Positions 30,036-39,855 of a stretch of 64,000 bases of DNA are shown in pieces. Positions within the stretch are counted from its first letter, which is position 1, and each line of letters begins with the position of its first letter. The stretch is from an uncultured SAR86 cluster bacterium (GTDB lineage Bacteria > Pseudomonadota > Gammaproteobacteria > Magnimaribacterales > D2472), in contig CACNXK010000001.1 of assembly GCA_902624425.1 (NCBI GenBank), positions 62,001 to 126,000 on the forward strand, given 5' to 3'. The position numbers and the translations under genes were made by a program. The notes beneath the pieces are model-generated. The model searched no databases and was not told the origin of the DNA. It was given only the letters and a program-made list of their open reading frames with translations.

Positions 30036-30555
30036 ATATTTCTTTATTCTTTTAGTTGCATCTTATATGTCTTATACAGATATTCTTGTTGATATTAGTC
30101 AGCAAAGGCTCTTCTTACTTGATAACGGAGGAACTTTAATTGTTTCATACCCTATATCTTCATCTTATTTTGGTGAGGGTCAGGTTGAAAATTCATTCAA
30201 AACCCCTCTTGGTAAGCACGTCATTAAGCAAAAAATTGGTAGTGATGCGTCAAAAAACATAATATTTAAGGAACGCATTAATACCGGACGTTATGCAGAA
30301 ATTCATCATACTGATTATGACTCGGATGAGGACCATGTTACGTCAAGAATCCTATGGTTAGAGGGACTGGAAGAGGGGTTTAATAAAGGCGGTAATGTAG
30401 ATTCCTTTAATCGCTATATATACATTCATGGAACACCGGAAGAGGGCCTAATTGGCAAAAAAGCTTCTCATGGGTGTATCAGAATGTTTAATCACGATGT
30501 TATAGAACTGTATGATCTTGTCCAAGAAGGGACAAAAGTCAATATAGTACTATAA
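30028..30555 (+). CDS. L,D-transpeptidase (YkuD fold)
   Basis: 175 aa; YIHGTPEEGLIGKKASHGCIRM. Confidence 0.9.
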   Translation: MRKYFFILLVASYMSYTDILVDISQQRLFLLDNGGTLIVSYPISSSYFGEGQVENSFKTPLGKHVIKQKIGSDASKNIIFKERINTGRYAEIHHTDYDSDEDHVTSRILWLEGLEEGFNKGGNVDSFNRYIYIHGTPEEGLIGKKASHGCIRMFNHDVIELYDLVQEGTKVNIVL

Positions 30556-32715
30556 ATTCCCTGCAACAGATGATTTATTGAACCCAGAAACAGGTTTTCT
30601 ATCCTCTGGCTTTGGAGCATCGCCAAATCTGCCTTTGTTTTCAGCTAAAAACCCAATTAAATCAGCTTTCTGCCAAAAATCTGGGTCATTTTTTGCAAAC
30701 TCATCAATTTTTGATGAAATTACATCTAATCCTTCCATATTTGCATACTGCATAGGCCCGCCTCTCCAGATGGGGAATCCGTAACCATTTATATATACAA
30801 CATCCATATCACCTGATCTCTGAGCTACTCCTTCCTCTAAAATCTTTGCACCCTCATTAACAAGAGCTAATATGCATCTATCCACAATTTCTTGATCAGA
30901 GATTTCTCTTCTCTCAAAACCATTTTCTTTTGATACTTTTTCATAAACTGATTCATTCTCTGGAGCTGGATGAGGTGCTCTAGAACCTTCTACATAATTA
31001 TAGAAGCCCTTGCCATTTTTCTGTCCATATCTATCCATATCACACAGAGCATCATTTATTTTTGCTGTAAGAGGTGATTCTGTTCCACTTAACTTTCTTG
31101 CTCTCCAACCTAAATCTAAACCAACTAAATCGAGCATTCTGAATGGACCCATGCTCATGCCAAAATTTTCAAGAGCTGTATCAACTTGATGCGGAAGGGC
31201 TCCTTCTAAAAGAAGTTGATTTGCTTGAGTTGTATAACCAAAAAGCATTCTATTACCTATGAAACCCGGAGCATTTAATGAAACAACTGGAGCTTTTTTC
31301 AAAGCCTTACCTAAGGACATAATAGTTGCTAATGTTTCATTTGAAGTTTTATCACCACGAACGACTTCCAACAACCTCATTACATTAGCTGGACTAAAAA
31401 AGTGAGTACCCACTACTTTTTCAGGCCTATTAGTACAATCTGCAAGTGCATCTACATCCAATCCAGAAGTGTTGGAAGCTAAGATGGCATTTTCATTAAC
31501 AGATTCATCTAACTTCTTAAATATTTCAAGCTTAAGATCTAAGTTCTCATAGACAGCTTCAATTACAATATCTACATCAGAGATATCATCGTAGGATAAG
31601 CCAGAAGTAATCAAACCAAAGGTTTTTTCTTTTTGTTCTTCAGTCATTCTTCCTCTATCAACCATAAATTTATAGTTTCTCTCTATTGCCGATAATCCCC
31701 TTTTAAGATTTTCTTCATCTTGATCTACGATATGAACAGGAATCCCAATATTCGCAAAGCACATTGCTATTCCGCCACCCATTGTTCCAGAACCAATAAT
31801 CCCAGCTTTTTTCACATCCATTTTTGGTGTTTCTTTTGGGACATCATTAATTTTAGATGCAGCTCTTTCACCAAAGAAGATATGAATCATGGCCTCTCTT
31901 TGTGGATTTAGGAGGCATTCTATGAAGTATTCTGCTTCTTTTTTCATACCTTCATCAAAATCATCCAAATTTATAGCTGCTTCTACACATTGGATAATTT
32001 TTCCTGGTGCAAATTGGCCTTTTCTTGTTTTAGCAGCTAAAGCTCTAGCCTCTGAAATAATGTTTTCATCACCTCTTGCAGCAAGAACCTTATCATTAAG
32101 ATCTCTAACTAGAGGATGAGTATCGTTTTTTGTTGCAACCTCTTTTGCAAAGGCAACTGCATCTTCCACAATGTCACCTTCAGATAATGAGTCAATAACA
32201 CCCATATCTACTGCTTTTACCGCAGGTATATGCCTACCTGAAAGCATAATCTTAAGAGCTTCGGATGGTCCTACTAGGCGAGGGAGGCGCTGAGTACCAC
32301 CAGCACCTGGCAATAAGCCCAAATTTACTTCAGGAAGCCCTATAAATCCTTGTTTTGAAGAAACCCTGTAATGACAACATAAAGCAGTTTCTAATCCACC
32401 ACCAAGTGCAGACCCATTTATTGCCGCAATAACAGGCTTTGACGACTTCTCAATTTTCTCAAAAGCATCATGTATCGATGGACCATCAATTTGCTGACCA
32501 AATTCAGATATATCTGCTCCTGCTATAAAAGATCTTCCTTTTCCAGTAAGAACTATGCCAACAACAGAATCGTCGGATTCTGCTTTTTCCATGCATTCTA
32601 CAAGACCATGCCTTACACCATCGCTAAGGGGGTTAACAGGCGGATTATCAACCTCAAGAATTGCAATTCCATCAGTCACGTCATAATTTATTTTTCCTTT
32701 CAAGACAAACTCCAA
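30550..32715 (-). CDS. Bifunctional enoyl-CoA hydratase/3-hydroxyacyl-CoA dehydrogenase (FadJ/FadB-like; TTG start)
   Basis: 721 aa; crotonase domain AGADISEFG, GLLPGAGGTQRLPR; Rossmann GIIGSGTMGGGIAMCFA. Confidence 0.94.
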   Translation of the reverse strand: MEFVLKGKINYDVTDGIAILEVDNPPVNPLSDGVRHGLVECMEKAESDDSVVGIVLTGKGRSFIAGADISEFGQQIDGPSIHDAFEKIEKSSKPVIAAINGSALGGGLETALCCHYRVSSKQGFIGLPEVNLGLLPGAGGTQRLPRLVGPSEALKIMLSGRHIPAVKAVDMGVIDSLSEGDIVEDAVAFAKEVATKNDTHPLVRDLNDKVLAARGDENIISEARALAAKTRKGQFAPGKIIQCVEAAINLDDFDEGMKKEAEYFIECLLNPQREAMIHIFFGERAASKINDVPKETPKMDVKKAGIIGSGTMGGGIAMCFANIGIPVHIVDQDEENLKRGLSAIERNYKFMVDRGRMTEEQKEKTFGLITSGLSYDDISDVDIVIEAVYENLDLKLEIFKKLDESVNENAILASNTSGLDVDALADCTNRPEKVVGTHFFSPANVMRLLEVVRGDKTSNETLATIMSLGKALKKAPVVSLNAPGFIGNRMLFGYTTQANQLLLEGALPHQVDTALENFGMSMGPFRMLDLVGLDLGWRARKLSGTESPLTAKINDALCDMDRYGQKNGKGFYNYVEGSRAPHPAPENESVYEKVSKENGFERREISDQEIVDRCILALVNEGAKILEEGVAQRSGDMDVVYINGYGFPIWRGGPMQYANMEGLDVISSKIDEFAKNDPDFWQKADLIGFLAENKGRFGDAPKPEDRKPVSGFNKSSVAGNL

Positions 32716-32766
32716 ATTTTTTTTACATTATACCCAAAAAAAAGATCAATTATTTTATAAAAAGTA

Positions 32767-32795
32767 TTGATAATATATTATAAACATGCATAATA
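32767..32795 (+). promoter_or_regulatory. Candidate sigma70-type promoter (TTGATA - 17 nt - ATAATA with TG upstream of -10)
   Basis: Hexamers read directly from sequence in the longest intergenic gap; start site would fall at the beginning of the inverted repeat. Confidence 0.4.
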
Positions 32796-32800
32796 ATATC

Positions 32801-32837
32801 TTGTCAGCACTCCTCCCCCTATTTTTTGGGCTGACAA
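32801..32837 (+). ncRNA. Candidate structured RNA hairpin 1: TTGTCAGC...GCTGACAA, 8-bp perfect stem, C-rich loop ACTCCTCCCCCTATTTTTTGG
   Basis: Perfect inverted repeat in non-coding sequence. Confidence 0.45.
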
Positions 32838-32853
32838 ATCCTCTGAAAAATGT

Positions 32854-32871
32854 GGAGGGCTTAGGCCCTCC
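32854..32871 (+). ncRNA. Candidate structured RNA hairpin 2: GGAGGGC-TTAG-GCCCTCC, 7-bp perfect GC-rich stem; not followed by a U-tract on either strand
   Basis: Perfect inverted repeat; GC content conspicuous in AT-rich DNA. Confidence 0.5.
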
Positions 32872-32891
32872 AAGTCTAATTAAGGAAAATA

Positions 32892-32969
32892 ATGAGAGAG
32901 AATTTAGAAGTAATTTTTTTAGCCAGTTTATTTTTTGTTTCAGTACTTGCAATTGCCCCTGTTAGCTAA
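32892..32969 (+). CDS. Candidate small membrane peptide, 25 aa (MRENLEVIFLASLFFVSVLAIAPVS), absent from ORF track
   Basis: ATG preceded by AAGGA 5 nt upstream; one hydrophobic segment; downstream of two hairpins and upstream of gpx. Confidence 0.45.
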   Translation: MRENLEVIFLASLFFVSVLAIAPVS

Positions 32970-32985
32970 GTTATAATCCCCCACC

Positions 32986-33507
32986 ATGAAAAATTTATTA
33001 TCTGTAATCATAATATTGTTTTCGGTAACTAGCTTTGCCTGCAATAACCTAATTAATGAGAAACTAAGGATTTTAGATTCAACAGAAACTGAAAGCCTTT
33101 GTAAATACGAGGGCGAGGTGTTGCTAATAGTTAATGTTGCAAGCAAGTGTGGGTACACCCCTCAATATGACGGTTTGCAGAAACTTTATTCAGAATATGG
33201 AGATCAAGGTTTTACAGTCATAGGCATCCCATCTAGGGATTTTATGTGGCAAGAATTTACAGATGAATCTAAAACTGCAGAATTCTGTGATGCAACGTAT
33301 AACGTGACTTTTCCTCTATATGCCACTACACGCGTGAGAGGGGATCAGGCGCATCCACTATTTAAGAAATTGTCAAAACTTTCAGGTAAAGAACCTTCAT
33401 GGAATTTTAATAAATTCCTAATATCAAAAGAGGGAAAACTTGTGGGTATGTATGATTCGAAAGTATTACCAGAATCCCTTGCTGGCAAGATAGAAAATCT
33501 CTTATAG
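32986..33507 (+). CDS. Glutathione peroxidase family protein (Cys type, exported)
   Basis: 173 aa; signal peptide; NVASKCGYTPQYDGLQKLY, WNFNKFLISKEGK. Confidence 0.93.
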   Translation: MKNLLSVIIILFSVTSFACNNLINEKLRILDSTETESLCKYEGEVLLIVNVASKCGYTPQYDGLQKLYSEYGDQGFTVIGIPSRDFMWQEFTDESKTAEFCDATYNVTFPLYATTRVRGDQAHPLFKKLSKLSGKEPSWNFNKFLISKEGKLVGMYDSKVLPESLAGKIENLL

Positions 33508-39675: not shown

Positions 39676-39855
39676 CATAAAACCGATTCACCGTCACATA
39701 TAATCCCCGAACCCTTTGTCCAGGTGGTGAATATCATGCTAAATCAGGCTTCTCTTAAAAAAAGGTAATGCACAACATTAACAGAGGAAAATCACCTTAT
39801 TAAAAATTATAGGTTCAAAAAATAACTTATATATAAACGAATGAACCAGTAAAGC
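39676..39855 (-). ncRNA. ssrS: 6S RNA (ends approximate)
   Basis: Between zapA and ygfA on same strand as in E. coli; minus-strand sequence GAAGCCTGATTT...ATTCACC...CAAAGGGTTCGGGGATTA resembles E. coli 6S GAAGCCTTAAAA...ATTCACC...CAAGGGTTCAAGGGTTA; nested helices fold by hand (CUGGUUCAUU/GGUGAAUCGG, AUAUAA/UUAUAU, GAACC/GGUUC, GGUGA/UCACC, CUCU/AGAG, UAAUG/CAUUA). Confidence 0.88.

Follow-up and report, generated by a model that had tools for sequence, protein, structure and literature searches.

The gap upstream of the glutathione peroxidase gene gpx in a 64-kb window (the whole stretch of DNA analysed here, from a SAR86-cluster bacterium) holds a conserved unit in which a promoter, a two-hairpin RNA and a micropeptide gene precede gpx. 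The RNA forms a new family, specific to SAR86, within a known kind of RNA, and the micropeptide attached to it likewise represents a new family. We consider the RNA likely to be an Hfq-independent small RNA (sRNA) of the C-rich-loop kind, similar to sX13, that serves as a terminable leader of the micropeptide–gpx operon. SAR86 bacteria are among the most abundant uncultured bacteria in the ocean.

A sequence-only reading of this DNA had described a 270-bp gap, a length borne out by its flanks, as the fadJ-like open reading frame (ORF) starts at 32715 on the minus strand and gpx at 32986 on the plus strand. That reading proposed a small membrane protein gene that is either regulated by a leader or fused to an sRNA, which agrees with what we find, namely a real micropeptide gene preceded by a structured RNA that has a promoter to itself. 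In window coordinates, the features of the locus are:

30550–32715, minus strand: fadJ-like gene, with 3HCDH and ECH domains.
32753–32800, plus strand: promoter/operator element, from an alignment of 37 copies with a mean column identity of 82%.
32753–32800, plus strand: promoter sequence, consisting of TTTTATAAA, TTGATA (−35, 32767–32772), ATTATAAA and CATAAT (−10, 32789–32794).
32801–32837, plus strand: hairpin P1 of the small RNA, with stem 32801–32808 (TTGTCAGC) / 32830–32837 (GCTGACAA) and loop 32809–32829.
32810–32819, plus strand: CU/C-rich stretch CUCCUCCCCC in the P1 loop, a putative seed.
32853–32872, plus strand: hairpin P2, TGGAGGGC-TTAG-GCCCTCCA, 8 bp including a closing T–A pair.
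32882–32886, plus strand: AAGGA, ribosome-binding site of the micropeptide gene, 5 nt from the ATG.
32892–32969, plus strand: gene of 25 codons for a micropeptide with one membrane span, MRENLEVIFLASLFFVSVLAIAPVS, with its stop 16 nt upstream of gpx.
32986–33507, plus strand: gene gpx for an exported, BtuE-like glutathione peroxidase, last gene of the unit (PF00255, E value 9e-28).

Most of these parts had been picked out before. The 8-bp perfect inverted repeat of P1 and the AAGGA–5 nt–ATG opening of a 25-codon hydrophobic ORF were recovered as described, and the GC-rich hairpin with the TTAG loop is present with one pair more, as the closing T–A makes 8 bp. The promoter, given as TTGATA-17-ATAATA, held in its −35 part only; the conserved −10 box is CATAAT at a spacing of 16 bp, and ATAATA is one base off. 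Against NCBIfam PRK10606, gpx scores under the cut-off of that model.

The 83-nt element folds better than chance (z = −3.1, with none of 200 shuffles equally good) and folding a wider region of 191 nt gives no significant result (z = −0.9), so that comparison between relatives is the decisive evidence for the element. Across 39 aligned copies, compensatory changes are found in 12 of the 15 stem pairs (five of seven in P1 and seven of eight in P2), a number reached by none of 500 shuffles, and 96.5% of cells are paired, a value that falls to 32–46% once one strand is slid, with an alignment that was fitted to the covariance model and is hence biased toward the structure. The two stems thus came through the covariation check that had been named as a way to refute the earlier reading. 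RNAalifold independently recovers the same two helices, and compensatory pairs in P1 are visible by eye (TGTCAGC/GCTGACA, AGCTAGC/GCTAGCT, CTACCAAC/GTTGGTAG and TTCCAGC/GCTGGA).

While the P1 stem varies, its loop is constant and CU/C-rich, with the consensus CUCCUCUCCCCC or near it; an apical C-rich motif on a conserved stem, one of the features by which membership of the C-rich-loop sRNA class is judged, is therefore in place. The P2 loop varies across copies. Downstream of P2, at least five T within nine nucleotides occur in 54 of 61 distinct copies from relatives, a count that left out the window's genus because the search pattern missed it. In the window, the tail after P2 is AAGTCTAATT, a poor terminator, and the rest of its genus is alike. 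Judged by these tails, most relatives have in P2 an intrinsic terminator, whose U-run has decayed in the window's genus; there, given this decay, the RNA may mostly be a 5′ untranslated region or be released by cleavage. The predicted RNA is about 75–80 nt long, with its 5′ end near 32801.

A covariance model built from 23 loci finds the RNA in 92 of 104 genomes of the window's family (f1) at E < 1e-7; its matches in families f3 and f4 are weak. DNA searches place the gap in most genomes of this family, and the loci read always lie between a fadJ-like gene and gpx. A pattern for P1 matches 81 stretches in a genome collection that represents each species once, and nearly all those in named records belong to SAR86 cluster bacteria or marine Gammaproteobacteria; the few other matches (Anaerolineae, Dictyobacter, Micrarchaeota and Clostridia) are scattered and about at chance level, and we discarded them. 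Also set aside were two model matches in 369 genomes of the class, which are plain terminators in other contexts, weak matches on the antisense strand, which are mirror images of the inverted repeats, and matches in f3 genomes (E ~1e-4), which are without the second hairpin and lie 3′ of polA. By these searches, the RNA appears to be confined to SAR86 ocean bacteria.

The lack of a recognisable riboswitch family, as noted from the sequence, is matched by Rfam, which gives no hit above the gathering score in the gap or in the sRNA loci of ten relatives, and nothing real in the element at a permissive threshold. Elsewhere in the window, a 6S RNA (RF00013, 52.5 bits) lies at 39676–39855 on the minus strand, roughly 7 kb away from the sRNA; the distance between the two is about 2 kb in f4 genomes.

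A second copy of the RNA is found in genera g6, g2 and g3. It occupies the same orthologous site in all three, near a tRNA, and converges with an exonuclease-like gene. These second copies have the same promoter, loop and terminator as the main copy and no conserved ORF downstream, which argues for a role of the RNA beyond that of a leader; together with the terminator tails and the C-rich loop, they make an sRNA likelier than a leader only. A third, isolated copy (L065:3009–3088, genome G160) has the same promoter in another context, again with no conserved ORF after it.

The promoter element is itself distinctive. It carries the repeats TTATAAA/TTGATAA/TTATAAA, 11–12 bp apart, a spacing that suggests a protein bound on one face of the helix and that, to our knowledge, is unlike that of Fur, FNR and PerR boxes. 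A 30-mer of the promoter has 17 sites in 10 genomes against one in the reversed control, and all of them belong to copies of the RNA or lie upstream of a pseudoazurin gene. With a 48-position promoter model, strong sites have E values of at most 2e-5 and all others of at least 0.01; the promoters of f4 genomes are weaker under this model. The element would thus define a private regulon of RNA copies and pseudoazurin genes, and this common promoter suggests co-expression of the RNA with a periplasmic redox function. The pseudoazurin gene was seen behind the element in L061:3331–4175, L063, L064, L256, L258 and L265, either alone or after a pair of small membrane ORFs (of 60 and 57 aa, with no Pfam match); the window's own genus yielded no such site.

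Between the RNA and gpx, every f1 locus read has an ORF of 24–33 aa, mostly 7–29 nt before gpx, and the encoded peptides follow a shared pattern in which a glutamate is conserved, a stretch is hydrophobic and a proline stands close to the end. Over 66 distinct DNA sequences its pN/pS is 0.04–0.21, a pooled figure from pairs that have the same length, diverge by less than 30% and are not independent of one another. An ORF broken in relatives had been named as a possible refutation; these ratios across the ORF family speak for the opposite, and indicate that the micropeptide gene is real and under strong purifying selection. The peptide has no match among Pfam or NCBIfam models. In f4 genomes the gene order is L,D-transpeptidase, RNA, micropeptide and gpx. 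The f2 and f3 genomes read have the transpeptidase gene followed directly by gpx, and, as RNA and micropeptide are both absent there, the two would have been gained or lost together at the gpx locus. In some f4 genomes (L076:3153–3260, L077 and L078), the sRNA and the micropeptide are separated by a further small membrane ORF, with the sequence MKEYMNNLFSFCKEYPVWAAVFFSFGYLIGEIYVV or one like it.

SAR86 bacteria appear to do without Hfq, the usual RNA helper. No Hfq was found by its Pfam model in any of 12 SAR86 genomes, nine of them at least 90% complete, and the same model detects Hfq in five of the control genomes, including Escherichia coli, although a divergent Hfq could fall below its reach. 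Candidate targets were sought by complementarity. Complementary 15-mers are not commoner than controls, and when the window's start regions were paired with the real loop and with shuffled loops, the real loop did no better. The loop complement occurs before ATG about twice as often as in controls and recurs only at ftsZ, in genus g7. Taken together, these searches for extended complementarity gave no conserved target, though short seeds could escape them. Given that no targets came out of these searches, the step from structure to trans-regulation is one that we infer.

For the sRNA and leader reading, we infer the following course. A dedicated promoter would drive expression of an RNA of about 75–80 nt whose P1 displays the CU/C-rich loop, and this loop would pair with the G-rich ribosome-binding regions of mRNAs, lowering their translation without Hfq, as for sX13. 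Polymerase passing the terminator would yield the mRNA for the one-span membrane micropeptide and the exported glutathione peroxidase, with a presumed redox role, and through such read-through one RNA would be both sRNA and leader. The full combination, a leader that doubles as a trans-acting sRNA, is duplicated in stand-alone form and is wired by its promoter to micropeptide–gpx and to pseudoazurin in bacteria with no detectable Hfq, is a more tentative proposal, which we regard as possible and somewhat doubtful.

The main competitor is a leader that works in cis only, with the hairpins forming an attenuator or riboswitch of micropeptide–gpx in which a signal permits passage through P2, and with no trans targets. 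The main copy, often the only one in a genome, always stands in sense before micropeptide–gpx, P2 is a terminator in relatives, our searches for trans targets came back empty, and the P1 loop could pair with the GGAGGG of P2 at about −9.5 kcal/mol. However, that pairing is far weaker than the P1 and P2 fold (−27.5), RNAalifold sees no conserved alternative structure, no Rfam riboswitch matches, and stand-alone copies have nothing in sense downstream that they could control, so that we judge a purely cis-acting leader unlikely. The strong conservation of the loop without recognisable targets would also suit a protein that binds its CU/C-rich stretch and that the RNA titrates or guides, with no pairing to mRNA. 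Yet no known loop-binding family fits, Hfq was not found and C-rich loops have a precedent in base pairing, which leaves this account improbable.

A small hydrophobic peptide next to a small structured RNA is also what a type I toxin–antitoxin pair would look like, with the peptide as toxin and the RNA as antitoxin. Here, however, the RNA lies upstream of the ORF in sense rather than antisense to it, and the best match of its loop to the ribosome-binding site of the ORF is −4.4 kcal/mol; we rejected the assignment because the complementarity to the toxin mRNA that defines such antitoxins is missing. In addition, the peptide keeps to a single operon throughout the family, unlike a mobile toxin, and RNA copies stand alone without it, so that a toxin–antitoxin pair is very improbable.

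FsrA and RoxS–RsaE of the Firmicutes set C-rich seeds against ribosome-binding regions and are tied to redox or iron control, whereas their sequences are unrelated to that of the SAR86 RNA and they belong to another phylum. Closest in kind is sX13 of the Xanthomonadaceae, also gammaproteobacterial, about 100 nt long, Hfq-independent and restricted to one lineage, with stable stems and apical C-rich loops (4C/5C) through which mRNAs bearing G-rich motifs close to the start codon are repressed (PMC3771888). Whereas sX13 has three hairpins and lies 3′ of polA, the SAR86 RNA has one C-loop hairpin and a terminator before micropeptide–gpx, and the two have no evident sequence in common beyond the loop. 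We do not count the RNA as a member of sX13, as its locus is micropeptide–gpx and nothing similar follows polA in f1.

In Rhizobiales, sRNAs with CCUCCUCCC loops have been read as anti-Shine–Dalgarno (PMC3927594), and the CcsR/cuckoo (CIN1) RNAs of Alphaproteobacteria likewise have anti-Shine–Dalgarno CCUCCUCCC loops while their stems vary, and are linked to a gene for a small protein (PMC10253847, PMC3927594), much as here. Cuckoo loci, however, combine several C-loop hairpins with a DUF1127 protein, in another bacterial class and under another promoter, whereas the SAR86 locus has a single hairpin of this type and its membrane micropeptide is unrelated. Membership was rejected on two grounds: where at least two CCUCCUCCC-type loops are expected, the second SAR86 hairpin is a terminator with a variable loop, and in place of DUF1127 the adjacent peptide has no Pfam match. 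Spot 42 and alpha-r7, short enterobacterial and alphaproteobacterial regulatory RNAs, lie at polA, whereas the SAR86 RNA does not; alpha-r7 members, as quoted in PMC3771888, have apical C-rich motifs like those of the SAR86 RNA.

Some SAR86 genomes have a hairpin of their own at polA. In f3 genomes (L075:3039–3076, genus g15, and L329, genus g12), polA is directly followed by a distinct hairpin whose loop is C-rich (TCTCTCTCCCC or CTCCCCC), at the position known from Spot 42, sX13 and alpha-r7, and these genomes are without the RNA of the gpx locus. The f1 and f4 genomes checked have no C-loop hairpin at polA.

In the literature searched, we found no paper on small RNAs of SAR86. The sRNA family, the micropeptide family and their putative private regulon together would offer a handle on post-transcriptional control in streamlined genomes, and C-rich-loop sRNAs would extend to a lineage in which independence from Hfq is required rather than optional.
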